64,000 nucleotides of DNA from Candidatus Cloacimonas sp. (GTDB lineage Bacteria; Cloacimonadota; Cloacimonadia; Cloacimonadales; Cloacimonadaceae). The notes beneath the pieces are model-generated. The model was not told the origin of the DNA and made no database searches. It saw only the letters and a program-made list of their open reading frames with translations. The stretch is taken from contig JBDKSF010000096.1 in the NCBI GenBank assembly GCA_039680785.1, forward strand, positions 1-64,000. The letters run 5' to 3'. Made by a program: the position numbers and the translations under genes. Below are positions 38,928 to 44,754 of the stretch, one piece after another. The first letter of the stretch is position 1, and each line of letters starts with the position of its first letter.

Positions 38928-40211
38928 CTAAAAACAGATAAGCGTGCTTGCCGTTGCATCTTTAACCTCTACTGTTTTTAAAGTTCCAAAATCACTTTCT
39001 GTCCCTGGTAAAACTGCAACTTTAAAATCCCTTGTTTTTCCCGAAACGATATCCACACTTTTTTTGCTGTAATTCTCCACATATACTTCAACTTTTTTAC
39101 CGATTTTAGCTTTATTTTTTTGCAAAGATATATTTCGCTGCAGATCTATCATTCGTTGCAAGCGGTTTAGACCTTCAGATTCGCTAACTTGATTTTTCAT
39201 AGATGCTGCAGCAGTTCCTGGACGCGGACTGAACTTGTAACAAAAAACATCGTCAAAGCCAACTTGCTTCATAACATCTATAGTATCCTGAAAATCAGAA
39301 TCCGTTTCATCTGGAAAACCGGTCATAATATCAGTAGTTATAGCTATGTTAGGTATAGCTTTATGCAATTTATGGATCAAATCTAAATAATACATAGCAG
39401 TATATTTTCTATTCATTGCCTTTAATATCTTATCGCTTCCGCTTTGTAAAGGTAAATGTATATGTTCGCATACATTAGCTGATGTTGACAGCACTTCTAT
39501 GAGCTCATCGGATAAGTCCTTAGGATGAGAAGTAATGAACCTTAAACGATATATTTCATCAAGTTTGTTCAATTTTGTTAATAAGCCAGGAAACTTCATT
39601 TCATTATCATTGTAAGAATTGACATTTTGACCCAATAATGTAATATCTTTTCTACCTTGCTTACCTGCCAAAATTGTTTCCTCAACAATATCCTGCCAAG
39701 GACGACTTCGTTCGCGTCCTCTTACATAAGGAACAATACAGTAAGAACAAAAATTATTGCAACCGCGCATAATGGTAACAAACGCCGAATAAGCATTTTG
39801 GTATGTTGGCTGAATACCTTTATAGATTTGCTTTTCATCGAAATCCAGCCAATAGTTCTCTTTTATGCACTTTTCAATAATATCAGGCAGATTAGCATAT
39901 TGATCCACACCCACCACAAAATCCATTGTTAAATAGTTATCTATCAATTCTTTACCAATGCGCTGCGCCATACAACCCACCACCCCAATTTTTAAGTTAG
40001 GATTGTCTTTTTTGCGAGATGATTCACTTCGGATTCTGCCTAACACTCTGTTTTCTGCATGGGCGCGAACACTGCATGTATTGAATAATAATAAATCTGC
40101 GTCTTCTATTTGGTTAGCTTCTTTATGGCCTGCTTCCGTTAAGATTGCAGCGATTAATTCACTATCTGCTACATTCATTTGACAGCCGTAGGTCTCTATA
40201 TAAAATTTCAT
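38928..40211 (-). CDS. miaB: tRNA-2-methylthio-N6-isopentenyladenosine37 synthase
   Basis: 427 residues. The UPF0004 domain starts FYIETYGCQMNVADSE (Cys10), with further cluster ligands in FNTCSVR (~46) and VGCMAQR (~80); the radical SAM motif is CNNFCSYCIVPYVRGRE (~151-167), and a TRAM domain ends the protein. MiaB adds the methylthio group to i6A37 in tRNAs reading codons that start with U. The length is normal. The start overlaps the end of the glycosyltransferase-Ppx fusion gene by 4 nt. Cytoplasmic, two [4Fe-4S] clusters. Confidence 0.95.
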   Translation of the reverse strand: MKFYIETYGCQMNVADSELIAAILTEAGHKEANQIEDADLLLFNTCSVRAHAENRVLGRIRSESSRKKDNPNLKIGVVGCMAQRIGKELIDNYLTMDFVVGVDQYANLPDIIEKCIKENYWLDFDEKQIYKGIQPTYQNAYSAFVTIMRGCNNFCSYCIVPYVRGRERSRPWQDIVEETILAGKQGRKDITLLGQNVNSYNDNEMKFPGLLTKLNKLDEIYRLRFITSHPKDLSDELIEVLSTSANVCEHIHLPLQSGSDKILKAMNRKYTAMYYLDLIHKLHKAIPNIAITTDIMTGFPDETDSDFQDTIDVMKQVGFDDVFCYKFSPRPGTAAASMKNQVSESEGLNRLQRMIDLQRNISLQKNKAKIGKKVEVYVENYSKKSVDIVSGKTRDFKVAVLPGTESDFGTLKTVEVKDATASTLICF

Positions 40212-42232
40212 TTATTTTCCTTGTTGGCTTTTTTATCTGAATACCAGTTTGCATAGCCGACAGATATTCCAGAATTACATACAATAATTTCCTGGGTCTT
40301 AAATCTGTCCAGTAAAGAAATAGTAAAACTGATACTTAATTTTAGCACAGGCAGATAGCTTTCTTTCAGTAAATATGGCAGATAGTTTATTTCAGCATTA
40401 ACATCAAGAAAGTGAGATAGTTGCTGCAATGCATCTTTACTAATTGTTTTACCTTCCAATTTATCTACTTCATTATAATTGCATTTATAGATAACCGCAG
40501 CCAGATAAACATAGGTAAGCCCAATTCCTATAAGTTTATATGATCCCTCATAAGGTAAGCTATCAAGCTGATTCTCAATGTATTTTTTAGCTTCCTTACT
40601 ATCTTTGTAACGGTCATTTAGAAGTGTCAGTAAACCAAAAGGTAAACTATATCCCGGCTGTGTTTTGGTTTGGTTTAAGTTCACAAATTCTGTGGAAAAA
40701 CCCCCAATGTCAATTGCCAGGGATGCCTCTTCCCCACTTTCATAATGTTTTGCGGCATAATAAACATAGCGGATTTCTTCTTGCGGAGAAATAATTTTGC
40801 ACTTAATACCAAAATTGTTTGCGATCCAATCTGTCAATTTAGTTGCATTTGTAGCCTTACGCATTACGCCAGTGGCAAGAAGAACTTTTTCGGATGGTAG
40901 ATAAGCATCCGTTTGTAACAAGGGAGTAATTATTTTTTGCACTCTTTGCAAGCACCTTATGCTAAATTGGTCGTTTTTAAAATTCTTGCCCAAAGAAGTG
41001 GTTAATTGCGTTTTATGAATTATCTGCCTATGTTGAATGTCATATAGTAGATAATTAAGATTATTGGAACCGAGATCAAACACGCTAATTAACTGATTAC
41101 TTATCATTTGCGTATATTTTTGCAGAATTAAAGCGGAGACCTGCTGATTGGCATTTTGAAAAAGCTTAGAATGGGTTTTGCTTACTTGTATGTTGTTAAA
41201 AATATCCTTCCATTCCTGAGTTTCTTTTTGCAATGAATCTATCTGCAAGCAATTGGGATATTTTTTCAAACCAGCAATGAGGGCTTTTTCTTCCGGATAA
41301 TTTTTACGGGGGCAATATATAATAAATTTGTTCATTTGCACCGCTTCTGCCAGTGTACTATAACCTGGTTTACAAAGTATTATATTAGCGTTATAGATTA
41401 AGTCCAAAAAATCGGCATTCATTGGAACATAAAAATGATTTTTTGCCTTCACACCTGTTTGGGAAGAAATTACTATACCCTTAAATGCCTTACAGAGTTC
41501 TTCGTAATTTAGTTTTAGTTTGCCTTCTCCGCCAAACATAATCAGTAAAATTGAGGTTGTTTTTTCCCAACCGTAAATTTGACGGATATCATTGTAGCGC
41601 TCTTTTTTACGGGCAAGCAACCCACAATGAATCACTTCTTTAAAAGCGGACATACTATCTTTAGTACTAAGAGGTAGTTGAAAACAGGCATCAAATCTTT
41701 GATACAAAGACCAAATTAGATTGAGCACAGGATTCAGAGAAGTTTCATATTCTGCTTTATCACAACAAGAAATCTGTTTTTTCGCGGCTGAATCGGTAGG
41801 CGGCAATACACTTAGAGATTTGTAAATATAATACCATTCAAAATTGGTAACCGCAAAAACCGGAATCTGACAATAAGCGGCAAAATCACTAACCAAATAT
41901 GGAACATCGGCAATTATGCAGTCAATCTTTTCCCTGCGTAAAAATTCGATCTCTTGTTCCATAATTTCGTTTCGCTGCGAAAGCAAATCTAAAATAGACG
42001 AAACGGTCTTTTCTAAATCAACTTGTAAATCTTCCTTATGCTTAACGCCCACATCAATCGATCGCTGATGCAGAACATAGTAATGGGGATTTAAATTATT
42101 AAAAAGATAAGCTGGTTTAGCACTGATAATATGACAAAAGACACCATAATTAATTAATTCTTCGGCTAAAGCGCAAAGGCGGGTTGAATGACCAAAACCA
42201 TGATTTGAAGCATAGAGGGCAAAGTGTAACAT
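40208..42232 (-). CDS. Fusion: glycosyltransferase-like domain plus Ppx/GppA phosphatase domain
   Basis: 674 residues in one uninterrupted frame. Residues 1-~370 are a GT-B type glycosyltransferase: SNHGFGHSTRLCALAEEL (9-26) at the N-terminus, a second Rossmann half from IMFGGEGKLK (~231) and the donor-site block CKPGYSTLAEAVQM (~287-300). From ~380 an exopolyphosphatase/GppA fold begins: FDLGSNNLNYLL (385-396), ATGVMRKATN (~453), the catalytic glutamates in SPQEEIRYVYYA and AIDIGGFSTEF (~506-516), then LPFGLLTLL. The Ppx family hydrolyses polyphosphate or pppGpp. Small changes (GGF for GGG) leave activity open. It starts 9 nt after the NusG-domain gene and overlaps miaB. Both halves look soluble. 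I do not know this combination. Confidence 0.8.
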   Translation of the reverse strand: MLHFALYASNHGFGHSTRLCALAEELINYGVFCHIISAKPAYLFNNLNPHYYVLHQRSIDVGVKHKEDLQVDLEKTVSSILDLLSQRNEIMEQEIEFLRREKIDCIIADVPYLVSDFAAYCQIPVFAVTNFEWYYIYKSLSVLPPTDSAAKKQISCCDKAEYETSLNPVLNLIWSLYQRFDACFQLPLSTKDSMSAFKEVIHCGLLARKKERYNDIRQIYGWEKTTSILLIMFGGEGKLKLNYEELCKAFKGIVISSQTGVKAKNHFYVPMNADFLDLIYNANIILCKPGYSTLAEAVQMNKFIIYCPRKNYPEEKALIAGLKKYPNCLQIDSLQKETQEWKDIFNNIQVSKTHSKLFQNANQQVSALILQKYTQMISNQLISVFDLGSNNLNYLLYDIQHRQIIHKTQLTTSLGKNFKNDQFSIRCLQRVQKIITPLLQTDAYLPSEKVLLATGVMRKATNATKLTDWIANNFGIKCKIISPQEEIRYVYYAAKHYESGEEASLAIDIGGFSTEFVNLNQTKTQPGYSLPFGLLTLLNDRYKDSKEAKKYIENQLDSLPYEGSYKLIGIGLTYVYLAAVIYKCNYNEVDKLEGKTISKDALQQLSHFLDVNAEINYLPYLLKESYLPVLKLSISFTISLLDRFKTQEIIVCNSGISVGYANWYSDKKANKENK

Positions 42233-42241
42233 AAGCTTATC

Positions 42242-42610
42242 CTAATAAAGAATCAATTTATTTTGCTTGCCGTTTTCGTGTATTTCAATCATCACTTTAT
42301 TGGGTAAACAAATGATGGGCATAGAACTTGTAAATCCCTGTTTTACACATCTTTGTCCAGGACAATCAGCATATTTCATTCTCACCTTGCCGTTCCTTAT
42401 TTCTACGGTATTATGGGCGTCTATTTTAATTAATTTATTCTTGTCTAATGAATAAGAACCATAAAGGCGGTTATTTTTATAAATATAGACATAGGAATCG
42501 GTTTTGGCCTTTAAATAATAACGAGCGGAAAAAATAATTGCCAAGACGACGCATAAAATCAGTAAGAGATCAGATGGTTTTAAATCGTTTAAAATTGTAT
42601 GCTTTGTCAT
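42242..42610 (-). CDS. NusG domain II-containing membrane-anchored protein
   Basis: 122 residues: one N-terminal membrane helix (~12-30) and then a small beta domain with ADCPGQRCVKQGF (~79-91) and IICLPNKVMIEI (~98-109), which is the pattern of the NusG_II (DUF1312) family. Such proteins sit at the membrane with the domain outside and contain a conserved cysteine set (here three). They occur beside Rnf, thiamin or radical SAM genes; function not established. It starts directly after the AmrS-type gene (no gap), so the two are coupled. Confidence 0.75.
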   Translation of the reverse strand: MTKHTILNDLKPSDLLLILCVVLAIIFSARYYLKAKTDSYVYIYKNNRLYGSYSLDKNKLIKIDAHNTVEIRNGKVRMKYADCPGQRCVKQGFTSSMPIICLPNKVMIEIHENGKQNKLILY

Positions 42611-43474
42611 TTATCTTCGATAAAACCTTGAAGAATGAACATTTCCTGCATACACATATTTTAGATATCTTGAGGCAATTTCGCAAGCATTTTCTACTTC
42701 TTCACTGGTTGTAGGCCTAACATTCATTTTGTAGCAAGGTCTGTAGGCAGAGATATGCAAAGGAATGTTCAGATCGACTGAAGCGATAAATTTAGCCAAA
42801 TCGGTCAATTCTTCTTCACTATCATTATAGCCGGGGATAAGCAGATTTGTAAGCTCAATATGCACATCCATCTCTTTTGCTGTAATAATGTTAGCCAATA
42901 TAACTTCAAGTTTTCCTCCGCATATATCTCTGTAAAACTTATCTCTGTAAGATTTTATATCTATATTAACTGCCTTGGTAACCTTCAATATATTTTGCCA
43001 GGGTTTCTTATTCAGATAGGCATTGGTAACTAAAACAACATCAATTTCAGGTGCTTGGGCAGCAAAATCCAAAATGTATTCATACCACATCAAAGGTTCA
43101 GTGTAAGTGAAAGCAACTTGTTTAATTGGCTGATCATTGATAACCGCAATCAATTCTTCAATAGACAGAAAGCGAGTGAAGCAATCCTGTTGACTTATTT
43201 CCCAATTTTGACAGAATTTACAGGTTAGATTGCAAGCATTGGGACCCAAGGAAACAATCATACTTCCGGGATGGAAATGATAGAGAGGTTTTTTTTCAAT
43301 GGGATCAAGAGATAGGGCAATTGTTTTTCCGTAAGAAGTGGCAATCAATGCACCATTGATAACTTCTCTGCTGCGGCAAAATCCTTTCTGCCCTTCACTT
43401 AATAAACATTCTCGCGGGCAAAGCTGGCATTTAATTTTATCTCCTTCTTTAAGATAGAACATTGCTTCTCTCAT
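42611..43474 (-). CDS. amrS: AmmeMemoRadiSam-system radical SAM enzyme
   Basis: 287 residues. An N-terminal CQLCPREC segment (16-23) and GFCRSR (31-36) give the extra cysteines of this family, the radical SAM motif is C81-X3-C85-X2-C88 (ACNLTCKFCQNW), and the typical YTEPLMWYEY (~134-143) and HISAYRPCYKM (~247) blocks are present. AmrS proteins usually accompany AMMECR1 and Memo proteins, which are not in the window; the substrate is unknown, though relation to pyruvate-formate-lyase activators is clear. The ATG overlaps the waaA stop by 1 nt. Confidence 0.85.
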   Translation of the reverse strand: MREAMFYLKEGDKIKCQLCPRECLLSEGQKGFCRSREVINGALIATSYGKTIALSLDPIEKKPLYHFHPGSMIVSLGPNACNLTCKFCQNWEISQQDCFTRFLSIEELIAVINDQPIKQVAFTYTEPLMWYEYILDFAAQAPEIDVVLVTNAYLNKKPWQNILKVTKAVNIDIKSYRDKFYRDICGGKLEVILANIITAKEMDVHIELTNLLIPGYNDSEEELTDLAKFIASVDLNIPLHISAYRPCYKMNVRPTTSEEVENACEIASRYLKYVYAGNVHSSRFYRR

Positions 43475-44712
43475 TATAACTCCTTATGCCATTTTTCCAA
43501 CGCATTAAGATAAATGTCTAAAGTGCTGGCATTTTCAGTCAAGACCTTTTTTGCCGCCTCACCCATTTTAGCGCGCAAGTCCTCATTTTGATACAATGTC
43601 ACAAGGTCATTTTGCAAATCATTTTTATTGCTTATTAATATTCCCCCTGCTGCATTCAATTTTTTAACCGATTCATTACAAGAATTGTGATAATTTCCCA
43701 TAACCACCGGTTTTTTATAATATGCTGGTTCCAAGGGATTATGCCCCCCGAAATCAAAAAATGAACCGCCCACGATAGCAATATCGCACAGACAATATGC
43801 TTGATCCAAAATTCCAAGGGTGTCTATAATTAATATTTCCTCTGCTAAAGTATTTTCTTTTTTCGTGCTAAAGCAGCTATATGAATAGCCATTTAAAAGT
43901 GCAATCACTTCTTCTACTCTTCTGGGATGCCTGAGAGCAATAATTATATGCAAATTGGGAATTTGCTCTTTTAGAAAAGGAAAGATGGATATAAACAGTT
44001 CTTCTTCACCTGGACGGGAAGAACCCCAACAAATAATAAAATCATCACTTTTATAACCCCATTCTTCTCTAAGCTTGTTAGGATCATAGTTTTTAAGAAC
44101 TATAGAGAATTTTAGATTACCACTCTCTAAAACAGGTCTATTAAATAATTTCTCATAGCGTTTGGCATCTTCTTTACTTTGAGCATGGATTTCAGTGATG
44201 GGACTTTGCAAATACCTAAAAAGAAATTTTAGTAAACGATAACTTTGGAAAGTGCGTTTGGACATCCTGGCATTTAAAAATAAAACGGGAACTTTGTTTA
44301 TTTTTGCCCAAAGAAGCATATTGGGCCAGATCTCCGTTTCCACAATACAGATTAAACCAGGATTTATTTTATCTAATTGCTTTTTTCTTAGATGAGGTAG
44401 ATCGATAACTGAAAGAAATCCTGGGACTAAAGGACTAATTTGATTTGCTTCCGCACAACTGGTAACAGTGCTTGTAGTAATGCACAATTTAATTTCCGGA
44501 TGTTTTTGCAAATGTTTGGTTACCAATGTTTTAATAGCGGTTAATTCACCCATTGAAGCACAATGAAACAAGATTCCTTTTTCCGTATTTATGCCGTTGG
44601 CTTTAATTGCCTCACTATAATGCCTTTGTTTCAGCAGTAAATAGAGGAAAGGATAAAAAAGGAAATATATCGTTTCAAGCAGGATATCAAAGAGAGAGAG
44701 TATAATTAACAT
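43474..44712 (-). CDS. waaA: 3-deoxy-D-manno-octulosonic acid (Kdo) transferase
   Basis: 412 residues from ATG 44712; an upstream TTG at 44718 adds two residues. The N-terminal membrane anchor (~3-25) is followed by FHCASMGELTAIK (~50-62), ETEIWPNMLLWAK (~124-136), and the C-terminal GGSFFDFGGHNPLEPAYYKKP split over ~305-325, all characteristic of KdtA/WaaA (GT30). It adds Kdo to lipid A precursors at the inner membrane and therefore implies an LPS-bearing outer membrane. It lies between tRNA-Asp and amrS. Confidence 0.94.
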   Translation of the reverse strand: MLIILSLFDILLETIYFLFYPFLYLLLKQRHYSEAIKANGINTEKGILFHCASMGELTAIKTLVTKHLQKHPEIKLCITTSTVTSCAEANQISPLVPGFLSVIDLPHLRKKQLDKINPGLICIVETEIWPNMLLWAKINKVPVLFLNARMSKRTFQSYRLLKFLFRYLQSPITEIHAQSKEDAKRYEKLFNRPVLESGNLKFSIVLKNYDPNKLREEWGYKSDDFIICWGSSRPGEEELFISIFPFLKEQIPNLHIIIALRHPRRVEEVIALLNGYSYSCFSTKKENTLAEEILIIDTLGILDQAYCLCDIAIVGGSFFDFGGHNPLEPAYYKKPVVMGNYHNSCNESVKKLNAAGGILISNKNDLQNDLVTLYQNEDLRAKMGEAAKKVLTENASTLDIYLNALEKWHKEL

Positions 44713-44754
44713 ATACAAACAGGGACAAAACTAAATTTGCCTTCCTCATAAATA

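Follow-up and report, generated by a model that had tools for sequence, protein, structure and literature searches.

The 64,000-nucleotide stretch of Candidatus Cloacimonas DNA analysed here (the window) encodes a genuine, conserved two-domain protein of the Cloacimonadota, in which a GT-B glycosyltransferase-like (GT) domain is joined through a short linker to a Ppx/GppA phosphatase domain. This is an unusual and new domain architecture built from known parts, and the functions considered below are predicted ones. A first-pass annotation of the same letters had placed the 674-residue frame exactly, without giving its strand, and its author knew of no such fusion; a literature search of incomplete coverage likewise found none reported.

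40208–42232, minus strand: GT-Ppx fusion gene, 674 amino acids, stop codon included, ATG start at 42232 (open reading frame list, orthologous frames, AlphaFold model)

Two trivial explanations raised with the first-pass annotation can be set aside. A frame error in the assembly is ruled out because the frame is continuous in 44 of the 48 genomes that carry this glycosyltransferase (among 104 Cloacimonadota genomes surveyed, each at least 80% complete), including the single-contig genome G008, where the same fusion is an uninterrupted frame of 691 residues. The fusion is cut at contig ends in three others (G005, G032 and G035), and the last, G009, has a glycosyltransferase of 362 residues with no attached Ppx domain. 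Nor are the homologues always encoded as two genes: genomes with unfused Ppx orthologues contain no such glycosyltransferase, and G009 has the glycosyltransferase half only. The fusion occurs in eight family-level groups of Cloacimonadota, and its closest named record, in a contig scan that reached one close relative, is a Cloacimonetes MAG; the best plasmid matches listed align to the Ppx half only. Both halves are under purifying selection (pairwise dN/dS about 0.11–0.26, at dS values near saturation), with the Ppx half evolving faster than the GT half in the window's family (for example, 42–45% versus 53–54% identity with G004). The whole chain, modelled by AlphaFold with 26 orthologues, yields a pLDDT of 91.2 and a pTM of 0.91, and the high pTM suggests that the two domains are predicted to adopt a set arrangement.

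The first-pass annotation had assigned the N-terminal half to the GT-B glycosyltransferases, and structure prediction bears this out more clearly than sequence comparison does.

41111–42232, minus strand: N-terminal GT-B glycosyltransferase-like domain, residues 1–374 (Foldseek; Pfam below cut-off)
42179–42202, minus strand: HGFGHSTR motif, residues 11–18 (H11 in 32/33 fusions; G12, H15 and R18 in 33/33)
41345–41371, minus strand: KPGYSTLAE donor-site motif, residues 288–296 (K288 in 33/33; G290 and E296 in 32/33)

By sequence, the matches of this half in Pfam and the PDB are weak: Glyco_trans_1_3 (PF13528) scores 21.6 bits on the window protein and 24.2 on the half alone, under a cut-off of 25, and both Glyco_tran_28_C and the NCBIfam MJ1255/VC2487 glycosyltransferase model also fall below their cut-offs. 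By structure, the half modelled alone (pLDDT 91.6) matches the UDP-bound YojK of Bacillus subtilis (Foldseek E=5.4e-14, probability 1.0, TM about 0.65). The protein thus shares with GT-B glycosyltransferases (PF13528, NCBIfam MJ1255-VC2487, the GT28 C-terminal domain and, by structure, YojK) a common fold and the GxGH..R and KPGYST motifs, the latter opening the stretch KPGYSTLAEAV at residue 288, and it differs from them in lying under all curated cut-offs and in being fused to Ppx. Ten residues of this half (Y7, G12, H15, R18, D60, E94, D109, N130, K288 and E314) are invariant in a 20-row alignment and kept over 33 fusions. Most likely, judging from fold and motifs, the N-terminal half is a sugar transferase with a nucleotide sugar as donor. 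It could instead be another enzyme of GT-B fold, such as an NDP-sugar hydrolase or epimerase, so that the fusion would be a two-step sugar-nucleotide hydrolase; the weak sequence matches leave room for this, as do its GHxxR-type N-terminal motifs, a type shared by GT-B hydrolases like PseG. However, the 50 best-scoring structures listed are, to judge from their titles, glycosyltransferases, many of them with bound UDP, and the KPGYSTLAE donor motif is conserved; we regard a non-transferase role as quite unlikely.

The assignment of the C-terminal half is firmer.

40253–41092, minus strand: C-terminal Ppx/GppA domain, residues 381–660 (PF02541, E=2.4e-20; Foldseek to 1t6d)
41060–41077, minus strand: DLGSNN phosphate loop 1, residues 386–391 (canonical DIGSNS/T, with S/T replaced by N)
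40775–40777, minus strand: E486, counterpart of E114, the catalytic glutamate in Deinococcus radiodurans PPX (33/33; role from PMC11234463)
40688–40711, minus strand: DIGGFSTE phosphate loop 2, residues 508–515 (D508, G510, G511 and S513 in 33/33; third glycine replaced)

The domain had been proposed to begin at about residue 380, and PF02541 matches residues 401–656 (73.6 bits, the cut-off being 27) and also matches all 20 members examined; the NCBIfam exopolyphosphatase model covers residues 382–660 (2.5e-29), below its strict cut-off. The motifs on which the proposal relied are all present, FDLGSNN at 385–391, SPQEE at 482–486 and IDIGGFSTE at 507–515. The modelled half has the two-subdomain ASKHA fold, with 1t6d as top Foldseek match (E=4.6e-20, TM by target 0.78). 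It shares this fold, significant sequence similarity, and metal and catalytic residues with known Ppx/GppA phosphatases (PF02541; Aquifex aeolicus 1t6d/2j4r, E. coli PPX and GppA). Over 33 fusions D386, N390, R458, E486, D508, G510, G511 and S513 are kept, and of the metal-site acidic residues, the arginine and the catalytic glutamate, D386, R458, E486 and D508 occur in 33/33 and E515 in 30/33; in D. radiodurans PPX (PMC11234463), and likewise in Mycobacterium tuberculosis PPX (PMC3411833), the counterparts of the kept residues serve metal binding, phosphate binding and catalysis.

Against this conservation stand several differences from the known enzymes. The domain sits behind a GT-B domain, it has DxGSNN where they have DxGSNS/T, and its clade has lost basic polyphosphate-guiding residues, in D. 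radiodurans PPX H14, R271 and R302 (PMC11234463). With these positions mapped by motif rather than by structure superposition, H14 and R302 are each basic in 22/22 canonical paralogues versus 0/40 members of the fused clade, and R271 in 22/22 versus 1/26 in the window's family, being mostly kept in other families. The fused clade, then, keeps the phosphate-hydrolysis residues, those that handle the metal and activate the water, and has lost the basic polyphosphate-guiding ones. In the window's family, moreover, the third glycine of loop 2 is variable and the GG of the third glycine loop is GL in 26/26, and activity of the Ppx half could be reduced as a result.

The first-pass annotation saw polyphosphate or pppGpp as what the Ppx/GppA half works on, so that the fusion would link starvation signalling with the sugar chemistry of the envelope. 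It was right about the fusion, the domain assignments and the neighbouring genes; the meaning that it gave them is not supported. In favour of that meaning are the Pfam and fold assignments of the half to Ppx/GppA, its retained catalytic glutamate, arginine and metal aspartates, and the nearby waaA gene. However, with positive controls detected in each search, PPK1 and PPK2 were each found in 0/28 genomes, and the RelA/SpoT synthetase domain is missing in 12/13 genomes of the window's family, among them the window's own (G000). A separate Ppx paralogue is also present in these genomes, and together with the lost basic positions this makes action on polyphosphate or pppGpp very improbable; a starvation or polyphosphate link for the fusion is, on the whole, unlikely. 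The window protein thus departs from an exopolyphosphatase in its lost polyphosphate-binding residues and in a host where no polyphosphate kinase was found among the genomes tested, and from a GppA in that no (p)ppGpp synthetase gene was found in the window's genome; a literature search of incomplete coverage returned nothing on polyphosphate in Cloacimonetes. Because a RelA/SpoT synthetase domain does occur in 7/28 genomes overall (1/13 in the window's family), the case against pppGpp, though strong there, loses force in some other families. As a separate matter, the genomes of the family in which no such domain was found, G000 among them, are near-complete, and if its absence is real the family would be without a classical stringent response.

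Since in most of these cells neither substrate has a known maker, the Ppx half probably clips another phosphate. We tentatively favour a conserved GT and Ppx enzyme in which the Ppx half would cleave a small phosphoanhydride of the GT reaction, with nucleoside diphosphate (NDP) as the leading candidate. The GT-B domain would move a sugar from a nucleotide-sugar donor, releasing NDP, and the Ppx domain would hydrolyse it to NMP and Pi, relieving product inhibition and drawing the sugar transfer on; Golgi GDA1/CD39 NDPases work in this way. We count in support the kept hydrolytic residues, the lost polyphosphate guidance, the UDP-type GT partner and the near-invariant active sites of both halves; that both halves are catalytic is presumed, as are the donor nucleotide and the acceptor, and the step from conserved residues to NDP is one that we infer. 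There is precedent on both sides of the proposal: M. tuberculosis Ppx/GppA proteins act as ATPases and to some extent as ADPases (PMC3411833), and Golgi NDPases sustain glycosyltransferases by removing UDP and GDP, which is needed because these inhibit the transferases (PMC4379058). The proposed task is alike, clearing the NDP that glycosyltransferases make (PMC4379058), but the Golgi enzymes are separate eukaryotic proteins, and the fusion has no GDA1_CD39 sequence match. Membership of that family is rejected: its Pfam model has no match in the window protein at E<=1 or among 20 members at E<=0.1. We take GDA1/CD39 NDPases and Ppx/GppA proteins to be distant relations that share an ASKHA-type fold. 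Presumably comparable in plan is plant L-arabinokinase, in which a GT-like N-terminal domain of similar motif type is joined to a phosphate-handling GHMP kinase domain of another fold.

Counting against an NDP substrate are the missing GDA1/CD39 match, the position of the GT half under the Pfam cut-off, and the GL in 26/26. The last of these, with the variable third glycine of loop 2, the loss of R271 in 25/26 and the faster evolution of the Ppx half in the window's family, would also fit a different role, in our view almost as likely, that of a nucleotide-binding regulatory or structural module (an ASKHA clamp) that gates the GT in response to ATP, NDP or phosphate and itself turns over little substrate, if any. 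A pure binding module, however, need not keep E486, R458, D386, D508 and S513, which are invariant across the clade. A hydrolytic Ppx half remains our preferred, if tentative, reading, and a new phosphatase role for it is plausible; more doubtful is the specific proposal of a bacterial glycosyltransferase with its own NDP-clearing phosphatase derived from a Ppx/GppA domain. If true, this would give Ppx/GppA a third role besides those on polyphosphate and pppGpp, and the protein would do in cis what Golgi NDPases do in trans. Annotation routinely assigns Ppx/GppA proteins to one or the other of those two substrates, and here a conserved GT-fused clade retains its residues for hydrolysis in cells that mostly have no known maker of either. 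The fusion offers a testable case for Ppx/GppA domains in other phosphoanhydride chemistry and a model, in an uncultured phylum, of how sugar transfer could be coupled to clearance of its by-product.

What argues most against a tight coupling is the existence of relatives in which one or the other half persists by itself. The 33 fused Ppx domains form one clade with seven unfused, DVGTNN-type Ppx genes (SH-aLRT 100); the second, standalone Ppx of most genomes lies outside it and retains the basic polyphosphate-guiding residues that the fused clade has lost. Families f9 and f10 have Ppx orthologues without the GT, and the unfused gene of f9 occupies the same location as the fused gene of f7 (NYN gene, Ppx with or without GT, DAHP synthase). 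Family f6, sister of the fused f7 (rpoB 100/100, Ppx 98), has a Ppx (437 residues in all, L041:5240-6550) with some 140 N-terminal residues that resemble a decayed GT without HGFGH or KPGYST, a putative remnant whose score was equalled by 1/2000 shuffles. In G009 the Ppx half seems to have been lost naturally, its GT standing alone and abutting miaB (L071:1044-2129) and its only Ppx lying elsewhere in the genome. The halves are therefore separable, and these losses would suit the idea that they do unrelated jobs, were joined through a shared operon and persist as a neutral relic. That idea is hard to square with one frame in 44/48 genomes over eight family-level groups, a short linker and a confident whole-chain model, and we consider it rather unlikely. 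Either a single joining of GT and Ppx was followed by several separations, or the two came together repeatedly; the former, an ancestral fusion with later losses, is likely, and falls short of proof because the rpoB tree leaves the base of the order unresolved. A further observation concerns the separate Ppx, whose region in G000 and G001 (L053/L054) has about 86–98% protein identity and a Ppx dS of 0.20, versus 66–79% identity and a fusion dS of about 1.6 at the fusion locus, which suggests that the region was recently exchanged between the two species.

The gene neighbourhood had been described correctly, with waaA and a tRNA-modification gene (miaB) close by.

38928–40211, minus strand: miaB-like tRNA methylthiotransferase, overlapping the fusion gene by 4 nt, adjacency conserved (named by sequence recognition)
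42242–42610, minus strand: NusG domain II-like protein, upstream neighbour, conserved in the family (named by sequence recognition)
42611–43474, minus strand: AmmeMemoRadiSam radical-SAM-like protein (amrS), conserved in the family (named by sequence recognition)
43474–44718, minus strand: waaA (KDO transferase; PF04413 at G000:C96:44104-44589, E=1.7e-41)

In the window's family the genes run in a conserved order of amrS, nusG-II, fusion and miaB, with waaA upstream. A tie to LPS through waaA is non-discriminating, because 27/28 genomes have waaA whether or not the GT is present. A DAHP synthase gene (PF00793) lies directly downstream of Ppx with or without the GT, often overlapping it, in about nine family-level groups (L010, L017-L022, L030, L033, L034, L036, L037, L038, L042-L045, L047, L048); downstream of the fusion it is found in two other genera of the window's family and in most other families. 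A functional tie to DAHP synthase as a requirement is rejected, because the window's genus, where the gene is missing from the fusion locus and the one PF00793 gene left is probably KdsA, seems to have lost DAHP synthase yet keeps the fusion. The neighbours do not fix the acceptor of the GT, and any tie to the envelope would be conjecture. Near fused and unfused Ppx genes in two families there is also a PsuG-like (pseudouridine-5'-phosphate glycosidase) gene, named by sequence recognition (L039:5867-6787, L042:3513-4412, L045:1713-2627). Finally, the uncharacterised AmmeMemoRadiSam set recurs near the fusion gene, with AMMECR1 and Memo genes in f8 (L033:1367-2744) and the radical-SAM partner beside the fusion in f1 (window 42611–43474), all named by sequence recognition.
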